Positions 7,046 to 24,903 of a DNA stretch of 32,165 nucleotides are shown piece after piece (positions within the stretch are counted from its first letter, which is position 1; each line of letters opens with the position of its first letter). Below the pieces are notes generated by a model. That model was not told the origin of the DNA, ran no database searches, and worked only from the letters and a program-made list of their open reading frames with translations. The position numbers and the translations under genes are program-made. The stretch is from a bacterium. Lineage in GTDB: Bacteria > Patescibacteriota > Minisyncoccia > UBA6257 > 02-FULL-45-10c. The stretch covers positions 66,748 through 98,912 of the forward strand of contig JAUYKI010000017.1 of assembly GCA_030700025.1 (NCBI GenBank). The letters are read 5' to 3'.

Positions 7046-8086
7046 ATGGCCAATCTCGAACAGCTTAAAAAACAGGCGCTGGAAGCCGTTAAGCAGTCTA
7101 AGGATATTAAGAACCTTGAAGAATTAAGGGTTCGGTTTTTGGGCAGGGAAAAAGGAGAATTGACTAAGATTTTGCGGTCTTTGGGAGCCATGCCGTTGGA
7201 AGAAAAAAAGAAAGTCGGACCCGCGGCCAATGCTTTGCGGGCGGAGCTGGAACAAGCGTTAGATAAAAAATCAGCCGAGTTAAGAGTTAATAGTCTGAAG
7301 TTTGAAGTTGGTTTAGACATTACTATGCCGGGAACTAAAGTCGGCGTAGGCCATTTGCATCTTTTGACTCAAGTGGAGAAGCAGGTCCGGGAAATTTTTA
7401 AAGCAATGAATTTTTCGGTGATTACCGGCCCGGAAGCGGAAACTGAAAAGTATAATTTTGACGCCTTAAATATACCCAAGGATCATCCGGCCAGGGATAT
7501 GTGGGATACCTTTTGGCTTCGCCAAAACGAACAACTAACTATTAACAAAAAACTATTAACAGAAAGTAAAAAGTTAAAAGTTAAAAGTGAAAAGTTATTG
7601 ATGCGGACCCATACTTCCCCGATGCAGGTCCGATTCATGGAAAAACACAAACCGCCGTTTCAAATTATTGTTCCGGGACGGGTTTTCCGTTTTGAGGCCA
7701 CGGATGCTTCGCACGAAATTAATTTTTATCAGGTAGAGGGCTTGATGGTTGGCAGGGATGTTAATTTGGCAAATTTTAAATTTGTTATGAATGAATTTTT
7801 TCAAAGGCTTTTCGGGAAAGGGATTAAATTACGTTACCGGCCAAGTTATTTTCCTTTTGTGGAGCCGGGCCTGGAAATTGATATTGAATGGAAGGGGAAG
7901 TGGCTGGAAATTATGGGCGCCGGCATGGTGCATCCGCGGGTATTTGAAGCGGCCCATTATAATCCGCGCGATCTTCAAGGCTTTGCTTTCGGCCTTGGTT
8001 TGGAAAGAATCGCGATGATTAAATACAATATTCCGGACATCCGGCTTTTTTACTCGGGCGATTTACGATTTATTAAGCAGTTTTAA
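7046..8086 (+). CDS. pheS: Phenylalanyl-tRNA synthetase alpha subunit
   Basis: A 346-aa catalytic subunit of the heterotetrameric PheRS, which charges tRNA-Phe. An N-terminal coiled coil (about 1-85) binds the tRNA. The class II core follows, with TGPEAETEKYNFDALNIP, motif 2 around RTHTSPMQVRFM...VPGRVFRFEATDASHEINFYQVEG, and motif 3 in GFAFGLGLERIAMIKYNIPDIR. A lysine-rich insert (about 160-183) precedes the conserved RTHTSP. It is encoded by repeats (AACTATTAAC twice, then four 7-bp units near AAAAGTT) and has no counterpart in typical PheS. pheT follows after a 166-bp repeat-filled spacer. Confidence 0.97.
   Translation: MANLEQLKKQALEAVKQSKDIKNLEELRVRFLGREKGELTKILRSLGAMPLEEKKKVGPAANALRAELEQALDKKSAELRVNSLKFEVGLDITMPGTKVGVGHLHLLTQVEKQVREIFKAMNFSVITGPEAETEKYNFDALNIPKDHPARDMWDTFWLRQNEQLTINKKLLTESKKLKVKSEKLLMRTHTSPMQVRFMEKHKPPFQIIVPGRVFRFEATDASHEINFYQVEGLMVGRDVNLANFKFVMNEFFQRLFGKGIKLRYRPSYFPFVEPGLEIDIEWKGKWLEIMGAGMVHPRVFEAAHYNPRDLQGFAFGLGLERIAMIKYNIPDIRLFYSGDLRFIKQF
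7569..7596 (+). repeat. Four 7-bp repeats inside pheS
   Basis: AAAAGTT, AAAAGTT, AAAAGTG, AAAAGTT in tandem, within the coding sequence. They encode part of the KLKVKSEKL insert. Confidence 0.85.
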
Positions 8087-8092
8087 TAATGA

Positions 8093-8245
8093 AATACCAA
8101 TATACTAATACATGCGAATAATAGTATGCGAATGCCTTAACGAATAGGCGCATACGAATAAATTTTTTATATTCGTATAATTAGTATGAATTAGTATTTC
8201 ATAAGTATTATTAGTATGAATTCGTATATTAGCATTACATTAGAA
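8093..8245. repeat. AT-rich direct/inverted repeat cluster between pheS and pheT
   Basis: The spacer is made of variants of ATTAGTATGAA, ATTCGTATA and their complements, including ATGAAATAC (8090s) matched by GTATTTCAT (about 8194-8202), and GCGAATGCC against GGCGCATACG. It can fold on itself and has no coding potential. Confidence 0.6.
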
Positions 8246-8252
8246 TAAACAT

Positions 8253-10241
8253 ATGAAATTTAGCTTTAATTTAATCAAAAAATTGGCGCCGGGGCAGTAC
8301 GATGAAAAACTTTTAACCGAAAAGCTGAATTTGCATTCTTTTGAAACAACGGATTTGGGCAATGGCGTTCTGGATATTTCCGTGCCGGCCAACCGGTTTT
8401 CGGATATTGCTTCTCATTTAGGAGTTGCTTTGGAAGTATCAGTAATTTTCAAAACTAAATTAAGCGATTTTTTATCTAAAATGCCGAAATTTGATTCCAA
8501 GCTATCCGGGCCTTCAGTAGAAGTTCAGGATAAAAATCTTTGCCCTCGTTATATGGCGGCTTTTGTTTCCGGTGTGAAAGTCGGCCCGTCGCCGAAATGG
8601 CTGAAAGATATTTTAGAAGACTGCGGCATCCGTTCCATTAATAATGTGGTGGATGTGATGAATTACGTGATGCTGGAAATCGGCCAGCCGATGCACGCTT
8701 TTGACGCCGATAAATTAAAAGGCGGGATTGTTGTCCGCAAGGCAAAAAAGGGGGAAAAAATAGAAACCATTGATGGCCAAAAGTTTGATTTAGACAGCGA
8801 CACCTTGGTAATTGCCGATTCTAAACAGCCGTTGGCTATCGCCGGCATCAAGGGCGGTAAATCCAGCGAAGTAACCGATAAAACTAAAAATATCTTAGTG
8901 GAAGCGGCGAATTTTAACGGCGTGAATATTTATAAAAGCTCCCGTCGGCTGGGACTGCGCACGGATGCCTCTAATCGGTTTATGCACGATTTGAGTCCGG
9001 CCCTGGTTGAAATGGCAATGCATCGGGCATTGGCGCTTCTGCGGGAATTAGCCACCGCAAATGCGGGGCAAGCCGACGGAAAAGACGGCAAGCCGACGGA
9101 TGTTTATCCGAAAAAACAATCCAAGAAATTATTGGAATTAAATACGGGTAAAATAAATAAATTAATCGGATATGATTTTAACGAAAAAGAATTAGCCGAT
9201 CTTTTTAGCCGTTTAGGTTTTAAGCTGGAGGGGAAGCTTTGGCAGGTTCCGGAATGGCGGATGGATATCAATAATCTGGAAGATTTGGCGGAGGAAGTAG
9301 CCCGGTTTTCCGATTACAACAAGCTTCCGGCGCTTCCGCCGGCAGTGGCTTTGGGCGTGGCCGAGGAGGCGGAAGAAATCAGCTTAGTGGATAAAGTCAG
9401 CGGTTTTTTGAAGGGCGCCGGTTTTAGCGAGTCCTATAATTATTCTTTTATATCTAAGGAAGAAGCCGGAGCCTTGCCTAAGGGGATTTTTGGCGCCGAG
9501 AAGCCTGTGGAGCTGTTGAATCCTATCAGCAATCAATCGGCTTATTTGCGCGATAGTTTGGCACCGGGATTATTGCGGAATTTGAAAGATAATTCCCGAT
9601 TTTATAGTGACATGAAAATTTTTGAAATGGGAAAAATTTTTGGAGAGGGGCGGAGCGGAGTTAAAGAAACTTTGGCGCTGTCAGCGGTTATTTCCGGAAA
9701 AAATAGCGCGCTGGAAATTAAAGGATTAGCAGATTCGTTATTTACCCAGTTGGGACTGACTGAATATTTAACGCCGGATTTGAATATCGTTTCTGATTTT
9801 TTGAAATCCGGAGAGGCGTTGCGGATTGAAACCCCCGAACATCAGGTGCTGGGTTATTTGGGCTCCCTGAAAGATTTTAAAAACGGAGCGATTATGGAAA
9901 TTGATTTGGAAAAATTATTAAAAGAAGTGGACGAAGAACGCGAGTTTGAGCCGATTGCCAAATATCCGGCTATTGAGCGCGATATTTCTATTTTAGTTTC
10001 TAAATCGGTACGCACCGGCCCGATTCTGAATTTTCTTTACAGCGTCAGCCCCAAATTAGTGGAAGACGTGGATTTAATTGATTACTACGAAGATTCCAAA
10101 CTGGGCGCCAATCATAAGAGCCTTACTTTCCGGATTGTTTTTCGAAGCGAAGACCATACTTTAACGGATCCGGAAGCCGATCGGGAAATTGCTATTATTA
10201 ATCAGATTTTGACGGACAAGTTTAACGCGGAGTTAAGGTAG
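8253..10241 (+). CDS. pheT: Phenylalanyl-tRNA synthetase beta subunit, short form
   Basis: A 662-aa PheT; the bacterial norm is about 790-800. After MKFSFNLIKKL the chain passes within 40 residues to LDISVPANRFSDIASHLGVALEV, the segment that normally follows the EMAP/OB-fold tRNA-binding domain, so that domain is missing. The B3/B4 editing region (RYMAAFVSGV...NVVDVMNYVMLEIGQPMHAFD), B5 (ELNTGKINKLIG), the catalytic-like core (ESYNYSFISKEEAG...LLNPISNQSAYLRDSLAPGLL) and the C-terminal ferredoxin-like anticodon domain (KYPAIERDISILVSKSV) are all present. No ribosome binding site stands out before ATG 8253. Confidence 0.96.
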   Translation: MKFSFNLIKKLAPGQYDEKLLTEKLNLHSFETTDLGNGVLDISVPANRFSDIASHLGVALEVSVIFKTKLSDFLSKMPKFDSKLSGPSVEVQDKNLCPRYMAAFVSGVKVGPSPKWLKDILEDCGIRSINNVVDVMNYVMLEIGQPMHAFDADKLKGGIVVRKAKKGEKIETIDGQKFDLDSDTLVIADSKQPLAIAGIKGGKSSEVTDKTKNILVEAANFNGVNIYKSSRRLGLRTDASNRFMHDLSPALVEMAMHRALALLRELATANAGQADGKDGKPTDVYPKKQSKKLLELNTGKINKLIGYDFNEKELADLFSRLGFKLEGKLWQVPEWRMDINNLEDLAEEVARFSDYNKLPALPPAVALGVAEEAEEISLVDKVSGFLKGAGFSESYNYSFISKEEAGALPKGIFGAEKPVELLNPISNQSAYLRDSLAPGLLRNLKDNSRFYSDMKIFEMGKIFGEGRSGVKETLALSAVISGKNSALEIKGLADSLFTQLGLTEYLTPDLNIVSDFLKSGEALRIETPEHQVLGYLGSLKDFKNGAIMEIDLEKLLKEVDEEREFEPIAKYPAIERDISILVSKSVRTGPILNFLYSVSPKLVEDVDLIDYYEDSKLGANHKSLTFRIVFRSEDHTLTDPEADREIAIINQILTDKFNAELR

Positions 10242-10338: not shown

Positions 10339-10896
10339 ATGGTCACCAGCGCCGGCGTGGAAGTCCTGGGTCCTTTTTCAACTCCGGTTAATTATGACGC
10401 TGATTTGGAAAAAACAATTTCTTTGGATAATTATGACGTCCGGGATCCGCGTATTACTCCTAAGAATTTTCCGCCCCGCCGCGCCGGAGAGGCAAAATTG
10501 GATATTTATTTAATTTGTTTTGGAAAGCCGATTGCCACCCGGAAGGTTAACGCGGAGTTGAAAAATATGAAGATGCGGCCCGCGGAACTTCTGGAAGTAT
10601 TGCCTTGGGCTAAAGAACATCCGGATTTTCAACGCGAATTTCCGATTGTGGTTGCGGGAACAGTCTGGATTGACCATAGTCTGACGCGTTCTCGGCGCAG
10701 TACCCCAGTAAAGCCGGATAAAAACCAGAACAGCGACCGCTATATGCCGTGCCTTTGGGGATTGCGGGATCAGCGCGCGTTGAATCTTAATTTGCTCGGA
10801 GCGACTTTTGAAGAAGCGGTTAATAAGGAATGGCAGCCGTTTTGCCGTTTTGCGGCAGTTCAGTTGCGTCAGGGCAGTAAAGCGCCGGGTGAATAA
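10339..10896 (+). CDS. DGR-target-like protein (undiversified paralogue 1)
   Basis: A 185-aa soluble protein, clearly homologous to the DGR target at 15348. Shared blocks are ITPKNFP with ITEKNFP, MRPAELLEVLPWAKEHPD with YRPAELPEGLAHAKANPD, FPIVVAGTVW with YPIVILGSVW, and the final CRFAAVQL with YRFLAVRK. The last 80 residues correspond to the C-type-lectin-like region that the DGR diversifies, but the DNA there does not match the template repeat. It also has a proline/lysine insertion after TVW. GGGAGG precedes ATG 10339. A terminator hairpin begins before its stop codon. Function unknown; ligand binding is inferred from the fold. Confidence 0.75.
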   Translation: MVTSAGVEVLGPFSTPVNYDADLEKTISLDNYDVRDPRITPKNFPPRRAGEAKLDIYLICFGKPIATRKVNAELKNMKMRPAELLEVLPWAKEHPDFQREFPIVVAGTVWIDHSLTRSRRSTPVKPDKNQNSDRYMPCLWGLRDQRALNLNLLGATFEEAVNKEWQPFCRFAAVQLRQGSKAPGE

Positions 10897-11059: not shown

Positions 11060-11548
11060 ATGGTGGATGCACCGCTCAAACCGTTAGCGCTTGCGCCGAA
11101 AATCGAAACGCTGTCTCTCGGTGGCTTTGACTACGGCCGTCCGCTGGGAGAGCTGATTGATGATGGCGGATTTGAGGGGATTCATCCGGATATCAAAATT
11201 CCGGGTAGATTCCGAATTTTCGGAAATCGCTGCAGCCAGGAAGTTCAGCTGGTGTGCTTCGACCGGATCCTGACCTTTGATGAGGCGATCGCCGGGTTGG
11301 ACAATCTGGCCTGCCGTCCGGCAGCTCTTCCGGAGCAGCTGGCGTTGGCGGTCAAGTTCAAAGAGGCGTATCAGCAGGGGTGGATTCCGGCCCTGGATTC
11401 GATCTGGCACAAGAGCAGCGAGGAACGCCTGGTTCCGCTTCTCTGCGTGATGGAGTTGAAAGGAAAGCCGAGCCAGCGCACCTTGACCCCCTACAACTGC
11501 CTCCGGAGATTTCCGTCTGCAACCCGTTTTGCGGCTGTGAAGCTGTGA
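11060..11548 (+). CDS. DGR-target-like protein (undiversified paralogue 2)
   Basis: A 162-aa protein of the same family as the DGR target. GRPLGELIDDGGFEGIHPDI matches TRPLANMLKEDGQFDWVHSDI in the target, CRPAALPEQLALA matches YRPAELPEGLAHA, then DSIWHK aligns with GSVWRD, and the end is TRFAAVKL. Its codon use is richer in G and C than that of its neighbours. No TR-like sequence is present in its 3' end. ATG 11060 follows AAAGGAG. Strong promoter and terminator make it a single-gene unit. Function unknown. Confidence 0.75.
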   Translation: MVDAPLKPLALAPKIETLSLGGFDYGRPLGELIDDGGFEGIHPDIKIPGRFRIFGNRCSQEVQLVCFDRILTFDEAIAGLDNLACRPAALPEQLALAVKFKEAYQQGWIPALDSIWHKSSEERLVPLLCVMELKGKPSQRTLTPYNCLRRFPSATRFAAVKL

Positions 11549-15347: not shown

Positions 15348-15950
15348 ATGAAGAGCGAGTATGCTTCCGGGTTTAAGATTGCGGCAAGCATCTTTCAGAA
15401 GCTTTTGGAAGCCGTGGAAGATGCCGGCGGAACGGATGCGGATGTCCGCCGGATTGAGACCAATAGCAATCTGCGCAAGCAGATTGCGGAGTTGGTGGTT
15501 CAGGGAAAAAAGTTGGTTGATGGCACCATCCGTCTCCTCGTTGACTACACCCGCCCTCTGGCAAACATGCTCAAGGAAGATGGCCAGTTTGACTGGGTCC
15601 ACTCGGACATCACCGAAAAGAACTTCCCAATCACCAAACGTCCCAACGGGGAAGCGGACCTGAAAATGTTCCACTTCAATCGAGACATCAGCTCTGACCA
15701 AGTCATCCAAGAAATGAACAAAGAAGGATACCGTCCCGCGGAACTCCCGGAAGGCTTGGCCCACGCTAAAGCTAACCCGGATGAGCAGCGGAAATATCCG
15801 ATCGTGATTCTCGGCTCTGTCTGGCGGGACTTCCTTGGTCGCCGCTTCGTCCCGTATCGCTGCAGTGATAGCGATGAGCGGGGCCTGTACCTGAATTGGT
15901 TCGACCGTGAGTGGCTCGAGGGCTACCGTTTCCTCGCAGTTCGCAAGTAG
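15348..15950 (+). CDS. DGR target protein with variable C-terminal lectin-like region
   Basis: A 200-aa protein. Residues 1-65 look helical (FQKLLEAVEDAGG...LRKQIAELVVQGKKLVDG). Residues 66-156 are the domain shared with the paralogues at 10339 and 11060. Residues 157-200 are encoded by the variable repeat and have the C-type-lectin-like pattern ending YRFLAVRK. Codons differing from the template at adenines give residues 161, 163, 165, 167, 172, 179, 181, 185, 187, 190 and 192; R171 stems from a non-adenine difference. AAGGAG precedes ATG 15348; the TTG at 15321 would give an unlikely basic extension. No signal peptide is seen, so the ligand may be intracellular or export is unconventional. 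Ligand unknown. Confidence 0.92.
   Translation: MKSEYASGFKIAASIFQKLLEAVEDAGGTDADVRRIETNSNLRKQIAELVVQGKKLVDGTIRLLVDYTRPLANMLKEDGQFDWVHSDITEKNFPITKRPNGEADLKMFHFNRDISSDQVIQEMNKEGYRPAELPEGLAHAKANPDEQRKYPIVILGSVWRDFLGRRFVPYRCSDSDERGLYLNWFDREWLEGYRFLAVRK
15816..15946 (+). repeat. DGR variable repeat (VR)
   Basis: 131 bp aligned without gaps to the template at 16297-16427 (offset 481). Eighteen differences are at template adenines and one is T to G (15859). The last 20 or so bases (CGTTTCCTCGCAGTTCGC) are identical and act as the presumed initiation-of-mutagenic-homing segment. Confidence 0.95.
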
Positions 15951-16010
15951 CTCTTTGAACTTTGGTTCTTGGAACCTTGGGCCTAGCCCTTTGTTTCTTT
16001 GAACCTTTGG
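15951..16010. repeat. Heptamer-like CTTTGAA/TCTTGGA tract after VR
   Basis: CTTTGAA, CTTTGGT, TCTTGGA and similar degenerate units with about 7-bp spacing. It includes small hairpins GGTTC-TTG-GAACC (15964-15976) and GGGC-CTA-GCCC (15979-15989). Confidence 0.5.
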
Positions 16011-16011
16011 A

Positions 16012-16040
16012 CCCCATACGCTTTCAGCGTATGGGGTTTT
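16012..16040 (+). terminator. Hairpin after the DGR target gene
   Basis: An 11-bp perfect stem CCCCATACGCT/AGCGTATGGGG with a TTC loop, then TTTT. It serves as a terminator. It may also be the DNA hairpin/cruciform that some DGRs need downstream of VR, though 66 bp away is further than in the phage BPP-1 system. Confidence 0.8.
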
Positions 16041-16059
16041 GTATTTTTTAGACAATTGC

Positions 16060-16065
16060 TATAAT
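16060..16065 (+). promoter_or_regulatory. -10 box of the template RNA
   Basis: Perfect TATAAT with only a poor -35. The next functional item downstream is the template repeat, so this probably starts the DGR template transcript near 16072. Confidence 0.55.
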
Positions 16066-16071
16066 CAATTC

Positions 16072-16430
16072 GGATAGTAGGTTAATATAGTTCGTGGTTA
16101 CGGCTGCGAACGACCAAATTCTGAAATTATGGAAAAGAGAATATTACCGGGTACGCTTGGTAATAGAGTTTTTCTTTAAATTTCTAAATCAAAATAAAGC
16201 TACTTGGTATAAAATACTGGCGGATTTTAGATCCCAAATAAGATACAGCCCTAAGAGTATTCAAAGAGCAGTGGTTTAGATGGTATTTTATACAATTCTG
16301 TCTGGCGGAACTTCAATGGTAACCGCAACGTCCCGTATCTCTACAGTGATAGCGATGAGCGGAACCTGAACCTGAATTGGTACGACAATGAGTGGAACGA
16401 GAACTACCGTTTCCTCGCAGTTCGCAAATC
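16072..16430 (+). ncRNA. Predicted DGR template RNA
   Basis: The stretch from the TATAAT box through TR has no convincing gene; a 61-codon ORF at 16094-16279 has no recognisable features. An 11-bp stem GTATAAAATAC (16207-16217) / GTATTTTATAC (16283-16293) closes a 65-nt loop and ends 3 nt before TR. A GTTCG/CGAAC stem lies near 16090-16111. Extent is estimated; the 3' end is not visible and may run into the avd antisense region. Confidence 0.55.
16297..16427 (+). repeat. DGR template repeat (TR)
   Basis: 131 bp with about 35 adenines, many in AAC/AAT codons: ten AAY codons, nine of which are altered in VR. AAY codons are favoured in DGR templates because adenine changes give broad amino-acid variety without stops. 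It lies 350 bp downstream of VR and upstream of the reverse transcriptase. Confidence 0.95.
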
Positions 16431-16433
16431 GCT

Positions 16434-16766
16434 TTATTTTATCAATTGTTTATTCCAGCCCCAAAGCATTTTGCCTATATTATTTAATTGTTCAGAAAGA
16501 ACAATATATTTTTTATTGTCTAAGGATTTTATCTCCCAAGATAATTGAAGGAAGAATTTTAATAAATCAATTTTAGAAATTGCTTTTTGTATGTAAGGTA
16601 TTTTTTGTTCTTTCGGCAGAGAACTAGCAATAAAAATTAACTCTATCGTTGTTATTAAAATAGAATCAATTTTTGATCCAAGTGTGTATTTTGTGGCCTT
16701 TGGAAAATTCGGCAAGTATTCTTGCCAGGTTTTATAAACCTTTATCAAATGCTGAATAATCGGCAA
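16434..16766 (-). CDS. avd: DGR accessory variability determinant (Avd), 5' end uncertain
   Basis: A 110-aa four-helix-bundle protein of the Avd family: IIQHLIKVYKTWQEYLPNFPK, YTLGSKID, LPKEQKIPYIQKAISKIDLL and LSEQLNNIGKMLWGW are typical. Avd forms a pentamer that binds the reverse transcriptase and template RNA. It is on the strand opposite to TR and RT and ends 7 bp from TR. The only nearby start is TTG 16766, which codes the L of the usual NLPIIQ opening, so the natural N-terminus should lie upstream. There an 11-G run interrupts the frame: ATG 16830 would be in frame if the run were one G shorter. Start or frameshift state uncertain. Confidence 0.85.
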   Translation of the reverse strand: MPIIQHLIKVYKTWQEYLPNFPKATKYTLGSKIDSILITTIELIFIASSLPKEQKIPYIQKAISKIDLLKFFLQLSWEIKSLDNKKYIVLSEQLNNIGKMLWGWNKQLIK

Positions 16767-16773
16767 ATTTCTT

Positions 16774-16784
16774 GGGGGGGGGGG
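16774..16784. repeat. Homopolymer of 11 G
   Basis: The run sits between avd and RT, inside the probable 5' end of avd (as C on its strand). Such tracts slip during replication and are also error-prone in sequencing. Confidence 0.9.
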
Positions 16785-16809
16785 CTTTATATGAAGAGTT
16801 ATTACTACT

Positions 16810-17775
16810 ATGAAAATTCAATTGATTCATAAATTTGAAGACATAATCAGCGTAGAAAATCTATTAGACGCCTGGAAAGAGTTTGTCCGGGGAAAAAGGC
16901 GTAAACCGGACGTTCAGGAATTTTCTATGAACTTAATGGATAATATCCTATTACTCCATTCTGACCTCGCTGATTTTACCTATAAACACGGCGGTTATCA
17001 AGCTTTTAACATAAGCGACCCTAAGCCGAGGAATATCCACAAGGCCAGCGTCCGGGACCGCCTGCTTCACCACGCTATATATAGAATACTTTATCCATTT
17101 TTTGACCGGACTTTTATAGCCGATTCTTATTCCTACCGGATAAATAAAGGCACGCATAAAGCCATAAATCGTTTCCGCTCTTTCGCTTATGAAGTCAGCC
17201 GGAATAACACTAAAACCTGCTGGATATTAAAGATGGATATAAGAAAATTTTTTGCCAATATTGATCACCGGATACTTATGCGGGCGCTATACCGCGGTAT
17301 AGCAGATAAATATATCTTATGGATCTTGAATGAAGTAATTAGGAGTTTTCCTAAGGGCTTGCCTTTGGGTAATTTAACATCCCAGTTATTGGTAAATATC
17401 TATATGAATGAATTGGATCAATTTATAAAACATAAATTGAAAGCTATGTATTATATCAGATACGCGGATGATTTTGTGATTTTATCTCAAAATAAGGATT
17501 GGCTGGAAAATCAGATAAAGCCGATCCAAGATTTCTTATCAGAAAAATTAAGGTTGGAATTACATCCCAACAAGATTGTTATTAAAACTTTAAGTTCCGG
17601 CGTTGATTTCCTCGGCTGGGTTAATTTCTTTGATCACCGGGTATTAAGGACAGCTACAAAAAGGAGAATGTTAAAGAGAATTAAAGAAAATCCGGCTGAG
17701 GCCACGATTAATTCTTATTTGGGGTTGATGAGGCACGGGAATACGGGAAAGCTAAAAAGAAAGATAATAATTTGA
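16810..17775 (+). CDS. DGR reverse transcriptase
   Basis: A 321-aa group II-intron-like reverse transcriptase. Motif A is KMDIRKFFANID (D143), motif B-like LPLGNLTSQ (184-192) is the form typical of DGR enzymes, and motif C is RYADDF (Y218-D221). It ends with LGWVNFF and LMRHGNTGKLKRK; there is no maturase or endonuclease domain. It copies TR RNA with adenine-specific errors. It is a little shorter than most DGR RTs (roughly 330-400). ATG 16810 has no good ribosome binding site. The family motifs and the TR/VR pair make the call secure. Confidence 0.96.
   Translation: MKIQLIHKFEDIISVENLLDAWKEFVRGKRRKPDVQEFSMNLMDNILLLHSDLADFTYKHGGYQAFNISDPKPRNIHKASVRDRLLHHAIYRILYPFFDRTFIADSYSYRINKGTHKAINRFRSFAYEVSRNNTKTCWILKMDIRKFFANIDHRILMRALYRGIADKYILWILNEVIRSFPKGLPLGNLTSQLLVNIYMNELDQFIKHKLKAMYYIRYADDFVILSQNKDWLENQIKPIQDFLSEKLRLELHPNKIVIKTLSSGVDFLGWVNFFDHRVLRTATKRRMLKRIKENPAEATINSYLGLMRHGNTGKLKRKIII
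17286..17303. repeat. 18-bp perfect palindrome inside RT, copy 1
   Basis: GCTATACCGCGGTATAGC. The same palindrome occurs at 22517-22536. Here it encodes LYRGIA within the reverse transcriptase. Confidence 0.85.
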
Positions 17776-24174: not shown

Positions 24175-24233
24175 TGAACGTGAAAAAACAGAAAACGGAT
24201 GTATTAACCCAATATATAGTAGGAAAACAATAC

Positions 24234-24267
24234 ACTACAAAAATTTGCCATGGCATAAATTTGTAGT
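24234..24267. promoter_or_regulatory. 34-bp imperfect palindrome upstream of the PaaX/Cas2-like gene
   Basis: Centred on GCCATGGC, with outer arms ACTACAAA/TTTGTAGT; 14 of 17 pairs match. It covers the -35 zone of the following gene (its -10 TAATAT is at 24274-24279) and shares its core with the palindrome at 24852-24903. Possible autorepressor site or element end. Confidence 0.7.
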
Positions 24268-24851: not shown

Positions 24852-24903
24852 CAGACTATCACTACAAATTTATGCCATGGCATAAATTTGTAGTGATAGT
24901 CTG
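24852..24903. repeat. 52-bp perfect palindrome without spacer
   Basis: 26-bp arms meet at CC-AT-GG; the arms start CAGACTATCACTACAAATTT. There is no T run after it, so it is not a usual terminator. It shares ACTACAAA...TGCCATGGCATAAATTTGTAGT with the 24234 palindrome on the other side of the PaaX/Cas2-like gene. Confidence 0.95.

Follow-up and report, generated by a model that had tools for sequence, protein, structure and literature searches.

A conserved folded RNA beside the template repeat of a Patescibacterial diversity-generating retroelement carries an arm complementary to both the template flank and the target border

A conserved folded RNA lies next to the template repeat (TR) of a diversity-generating retroelement (DGR) in the window, by which we mean the whole stretch of 32,165 nucleotides of Patescibacterial DNA that was analysed. 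A single-stranded arm of this RNA is complementary both to the 3' flank of TR and to the 3' border of the variable repeat (VR). Both complementarities are read directly from the sequences while their function is inferred. The reading we favor, and consider likely at a probability of roughly 0.7, is that of a Patescibacterial-type DGR with a stand-alone structured template RNA, the arm of which primes cDNA synthesis and directs homing. Promoter, binding, priming site, stop and guidance are all inferred in this reading, with no transcript, cDNA or homing data at hand.

The cassette in the window is a complete DGR that is ordinary by kind; its homing activity is inferred. VR (15816-15946, + strand) and TR (16297-16427, +) form a gap-free alignment of 131 bp. 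Re-measured in the window, the two repeats showed 19 differences, of which 18 fell at TR adenines (8 A>G, 6 A>T and 4 A>C from TR to VR), the sole non-adenine difference being T>G at 15859. With 35 adenines among the 131 TR positions this bias had a hypergeometric p of 1e-11, and chance is therefore excluded for the adenine signature. The repeat was found to extend to 137 nt with 21 differences, 19 of them at adenines, and 9 out of 10 AAY codons of TR were altered in VR. An earlier sequence-only reading had placed TR and VR at these coordinates as a gap-free 131-bp pair with 18 of 19 differences at adenines, which held exactly on re-measurement, as did its count of altered AAY codons. The DGR-type motifs it had named in the reverse transcriptase (RT), the adjoining avd gene and the order VR-TR-antisense avd-RT, unlike that of phage BPP-1, held as well. 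Its interpretation, a complete DGR whose target has undergone heavy diversification, is supported, present-day homing activity being left without read data.

VR forms the C-terminus of a 200-aa target gene product (15348-15950, +) for which no family match was obtained in Pfam, PHROG and NCBIfam-type profile searches. An AlphaFold model of the target reached a mean pLDDT of 91, and most of its top matches in the PDB were C-type lectin domains, albeit weak ones (best E 0.007, TM about 0.5). The predicted fold is accordingly C-type-lectin-like, in line with other DGR targets, on the strength of the model and these weak structural matches only. A hairpin followed by a T-run 3' of the target (16009-16039, +) is likely a terminator, or else a homing stem-loop. 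Elsewhere in the window, two genes (10339-10896 and 11060-11548) matched the DGR target family (E 3e-14 and 2e-8) with no TR nearby, and possibly represent undiversified relatives of the target.

The avd gene, a 110-aa open reading frame, runs antisense (16434-16766, -). It matched Pfam bAvd above cut-off and the PHROG 'Avd protein of DGR', while the match to NCBIfam DivGenRetAVD (E 1.7e-18, 66.8 bits) remained below the 80-bit cut-off. The RT (16810-17775, +; 321 aa) carries LPLGNLTSQ and YADD motifs, and its nearest solved structure by sequence belonged to the reverse transcriptase group 8ub7 (E 6.6e-42), which we take to be the BPP-1 DGR enzyme. On the retron RT model it scored 59.5 bits, under the cut-off of 235, and hence does not qualify as a retron-type RT. 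A run of 11 G at 16774-16784, in the gap from which avd and RT diverge, is a possible phase-variable tract. A perfect 52-nt palindrome was also observed in the window at 24852-24903, with a related copy at 24233-24267.

The interval 15953-16296, left unremarked in the sequence-only reading, contains this conserved RNA structure with its pairing to both TR and VR. The whole 5' element spans 16072-16293 (+) and ends 3 nt short of the TR start. Its core (16187-16299, +) was matched at 112.8 bits (E 8.6e-26) by R1, a covariance model built from a structure-blind MAFFT alignment of 18 relatives from which the window was left out. Covarying pairs were observed in the hairpins H1 (16090-16111, +) and H2 (16142-16165, +). 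The 12-bp stem P3 joins 16207-16218 (+) to 16282-16293 (+), the latter strand ending 3 nt before TR, and both-side changes were found in 10 of its 12 pairs. All three helices, P3, P4 and P5, were supported in the alignment of the 18 relatives, which rests on sequence without structure. In the helices of the element 98.3% of pair cells were paired and both-side changes occurred in 20 out of 23 pairs. Compensatory cells numbered 101 versus 29±5 in shuffled alignments, none of which reached the observed values, and sliding the structures along the alignment resulted in a drop in pairing to 31-55%. The covariation result also held with 38 sequences, in an alignment fitted to the model.

Within the genome, R1 matched the window, a second cassette (DGR2, E 1.4e-21) and the scar on contig C3 described below (E 1.1e-6), and nothing else. 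The third cassette, DGR3, gave no match to the R1 model, yet an arm-like stretch in it complements its own TR end. The leader preceding TR is conserved among the window cassette (DGR1), DGR2, the C3 scar and about 25 relatives despite their differing TRs. A TATAAT at 16060-16065 (+) is inferred to be the likely -10 box of the template RNA, and in many relatives a TATAAT-like box lies 6-7 nt ahead of a conserved GG(A/C)xAGTAGG. The template RNA thus likely starts at about 16072 (GGATAGTAGG) from a promoter of its own, an inference made from sequence alone with no transcript data.

The distribution of the element among relatives shows that it is coupled to TR and not to RT. It was present in 34 genomes among 151 relatives and, phylum-wide, in 49 out of 287 genomes, and 39 of the 50 strong R1 matches were located 492-641 nt (one 1021 nt) upstream of a DGR RT. 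Coupling to TR follows from four observations. In named relatives found by RT alone, the distance between the end of the element and the TR start was within -10 to +5 nt at 29 of the 30 loci. At one locus (L133, 2242-2514, -) TR and the element are inverted together relative to RT. Three loci (L097, L100 and L101) had no RT in the stretch read and kept the element, TR, avd and an A-mutated VR, and a fourth (L094) kept the element and TR with only a remnant of RT. Finally, two copies of the element with TR precede a single RT in L095 (2719-3331). The four loci without an intact RT are in or near genomes with an RT elsewhere, and use of that RT in trans is a possibility. Among viral contigs with related RTs the element was found in only 1 of 31.

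In the RT tree, the window RT grouped in one supported clade with RTs of Patescibacteria, e.g. Moranbacteria, Magasanikbacteria and Uhrbacteria, and the RTs accompanied by the 5' element formed, together with those of DGR3 and locus L131, one clade with support of 100/98. The order VR-TR-antisense avd-RT is the rule in this lineage, with avd antisense in every R1-bearing relative examined. In DGRs without the element, taken from RT relatives collected by protein alone, avd runs in the same direction as TR. Most relatives also carry a GC-rich hairpin and T-run in the first 10-25 nt after TR, before the avd stop codon, likely a terminator for two convergent transcripts; this hairpin is missing from the window cassette.

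The arm itself (CAAAATAAAGCTACTTGG, 16190-16207, +) is the unpaired stretch before P3. Its portion AAAATAAAGC (16191-16200) pairs with GCTTTATTTT (16431-16440) in the IMH*-like 3' flank of TR (16428-16440, +), and 16204-16206 pairs with 16425-16427. The minimum free energy fold of 16073-16445 forms this cis pairing. Over 55 loci, cognate arm and TR flank scored 18.1 as compared with 12.95±0.36 for swapped partners (z 14.1), and dinucleotide shuffles of the flank gave a combined p of 1e-32 over the same number of loci; in the window the score exceeded nearly all shuffles (p 0.003). On the target side, the 3' border of VR (CAAGTAGCT, 15944-15952, +) is a 9-nt exact match to the reverse complement of arm positions 16198-16206. 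Cognate arm and VR border were again separated from swapped partners (z 12.8, 51 loci). With one row per distinct arm (n=17), the exact run averaged 6.9 versus 4.0±0.28 (z 10.4), and runs of at least 7 nt were found for 10 of the 17 distinct arms where 0.13 would be expected.

The two complementarities were compared position by position in 36 loci, in a register where the last CAA of the repeat is anchored on the UUG of the arm. At offsets 0, 1 and 2 the arm matched VR in 36, 33 and 25 of the 36 loci, as compared to 10, 32 and 6 for TR, while at offsets 3-11 the arm matched TR. At the first points of TR/VR divergence the arm thus follows the target VR, as the sequences themselves establish. 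The signal is confined to this comparison: arm scores over whole flanks did not separate TR from VR (18.1 and 17.5, p 0.4), nor did pooled discriminating positions (62 for VR and 71 for TR, p 0.49). A coarse search with wide windows for complementarity between spacer and VR, run on 15 to 23 further DGRs that lack the element, gave nothing clear (z 0 to 2.8). The guide idea is therefore not shown outside this clade, BPP-1 being one suggestive case.

The genome (830 kb in 18 contigs, of which the window makes up 32 kb) was searched for further cassettes and targets. The sequence-only reading had given the window cassette alone; two more cassettes and four more targets lay beyond its view. All three cassettes have the order VR-TR-antisense avd-RT. 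DGR2, on contig C10 (locus L024), is the sister of DGR1 in the RT tree, yet has a different TR and target. In its VR (L024 2734-2879) a 1-nt deletion opposite a TR adenine causes a frameshift with loss of the target C-terminus, which may be real or may equally be an assembly error. In DGR3, on contig C5 (locus L023), all 24 TR/VR differences are at adenines, 20 of them A>G.

The four further target paralogs, on C3, C11, C13 and C5, differ from the TR of DGR1 mostly at adenines and also at 11-22% of non-A sites. That they are current trans-targets of this TR was considered and rejected as far as recent donation is concerned, since the non-A divergence implies that it was not their recent donor; another, ancestral template was shared. 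Upstream of VR, 37-49% of third codon positions are different in most pairs of target paralogs; at non-A third positions within VR the figure is only 10-33%. The VRs of the paralogs have accordingly been homogenised by homing. Beyond the C3 target, a 64-bp piece of the DGR1 leader (at 95% identity) is fused directly to 51 bp of the RT 3' end, a junction (L020 3520-3634) that is the scar of a deleted DGR cassette. A dispersed palindromic repeat begins at the end of this scar and was also found at window 8084-8257, L023 799-915 and L026 5543-5695.

Among known systems, the Bordetella phage BPP-1 DGR shares with the window the RT family, Avd, adenine-specific TR/VR changes and a VR at the target C-terminus. 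The two differ in layout. The BPP-1 order is mtd/VR-avd-TR-brt on one strand, with a sense avd ahead of TR and a structured spacer downstream of TR and before RT; in the window TR is preceded by the structured element and followed by an antisense avd. A BPP-1-type layout was found neither in the window nor in any R1 relative examined. According to PMC12875486, BPP-1 cDNA is primed at the end of TR by an adenine inside the 3' spacer; direction is set by an IMH of 21 bp that contains five mismatches (PMC3240598). Spacer nt 47-56 (UAGGUGGUCA) were found to complement the VR IMH TGACCACCTG and not the TR version; at the four IMH mismatches covered, the spacer matched VR three times and TR never. 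The priming base in BPP-1 is A56, the last of these nucleotides. The Patescibacterial arm may do the job of the BPP-1 spacer from the 5' side.

As a DGR, the window cassette does not differ from described Patescibacterial DGRs (clade 2, Roux et al. 2021, PMC8144416; Paul et al. 2017), with which it shares the host lineage, a cellular rather than phage setting, a target without recognised domains and RTs in one supported clade. The consulted sections of PMC8144416 say nothing of the 5' RNA element or of its pairings. The Rfam RT-16 RNA (RF03019) resembles the element in place, strand and general layout (GCUAC..., outer stem, GAUACAGC...GCGGU). On the window the RT-16 model scored only 25.6 bits, short of the gathering score of 50, which was reached by none of the 151 relatives. 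A bridging sequence upstream of a DGR3-like RT (L103) was matched by both models (R1 39.9 bits, RT-16 37.2 bits). Given the below-threshold score and this shared match, we class the element as a relative of RT-16 and not a member. No Rfam family reached its gathering score within the element, and weak Rfam matches other than RT-16 and RT-7 were dismissed as unrelated. In a Ruminococcaceae genome, the Rfam RT-14 RNA (80 bits; L145 2807-2953) was found directly upstream of a DGR-like RT, from which another RT-n family likely belongs to DGRs. The window RNA is also laid out like retron RNA (msr-msd), with a structured 5' part, a template and a 3' end folding back on the 5' part; the system departs from retrons in its RT, which is not of the retron type, and in its template, a TR that serves a VR target.

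In the mechanism we propose, the template RNA would be transcribed from its own promoter and consist of H1, H2, the arm, P3 enclosing P4 and P5, then TR and its 3' flank. Folding of the arm onto the TR 3' end would make TR a loop closed by arm and flank. RT-Avd would bind this RNA and use the arm to start cDNA synthesis, the primer probably being an internal 2'-OH next to the UUG that is paired with the last CAA of TR, and P3 would help to halt synthesis at the TR 5' end. The arm is also an antisense, without mismatch, to the bases that immediately follow VR, where TR differs. It follows from this that arm and cDNA would form one continuous antisense strand across the VR border that mismatches TR, and this strand may send the mutated cDNA to VR instead of TR.

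The rival that survives best, and that remains possible, takes the VR border to be a copy of the arm, the cDNA-attached RNA primer having been copied into the target and the match being a trace of homing rather than a guide. The arm and cDNA reading as a continuous antisense strand across the VR border speaks for it, as does the likeness of paralogous targets at non-A sites. Against it, the match covers the stop codon of many targets and is perhaps held by selection, for which there is no direct test.

Two further alternatives appear unlikely. One restricts function to the arm/TR pairing and takes the match between arm and VR for a by-product of the common descent of IMH and IMH*. The whole-flank scores, alike for TR and VR (p 0.4), favor this, whereas offsets 0 and 2 follow VR (36/36 and 25/36, against 10 and 6 for TR) and distinct arms track distinct VR borders. 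The other is that the DGR is decayed and no longer working, its differences old and its fate that of the C3 scar. The one non-A difference in VR, the lack of a hairpin after TR, the deleted sister cassette at C3, the frameshifted VR in DGR2 and the lower recent activity reported for clade 2 by Roux et al. (PMC8144416) are in line with decay; against it, all open reading frames are open, nearly every pair of the element is kept and 18 of 19 changes are at adenines. Least tenable is a mere regulatory leader for RT/avd (attenuator, riboswitch-like UTR or terminator) with no role in reverse transcription, for which speak the position upstream of RT and the lack of any measured function, and against which stand the coupling of the element to TR instead of RT (L133, the RT-less cassettes, L095 and the 29 of 30 loci), the opposite direction of avd and the specific pairing of the arm with the TR 3' flank.

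Our preferred reading thus remains the arm-bearing, stand-alone template RNA. A bolder version, in which Patescibacterial DGRs are RNA-guided and the arm is both the cDNA primer and the guide that chooses the target and the TR to VR direction, falls a little short of even odds in our estimation, priming and guidance being inferred.

For the RNA architecture of this known kind of DGR no description was found in the literature searched, a search that left out several key BPP-1 RNA papers. Few known hypermutation systems are as abundant as DGRs, and Patescibacteria are rich in them, in genomes under 1 Mb. The 5' element explains where the RNA platform is located in a large cellular DGR lineage. 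Target choice and the one-way flow from TR to VR in BPP-1 rest on an unexplained IMH (PMC3240598), and an arm that matches VR, not TR, at the first mismatches offers a concrete and testable answer to both. If Patescibacterial DGRs are indeed RNA-guided, retargeting would require no more than matching changes in arm and TR, the same logic may apply to BPP-1 via its 3' spacer, and the arrangement would point to programmable targeted mutagenesis.
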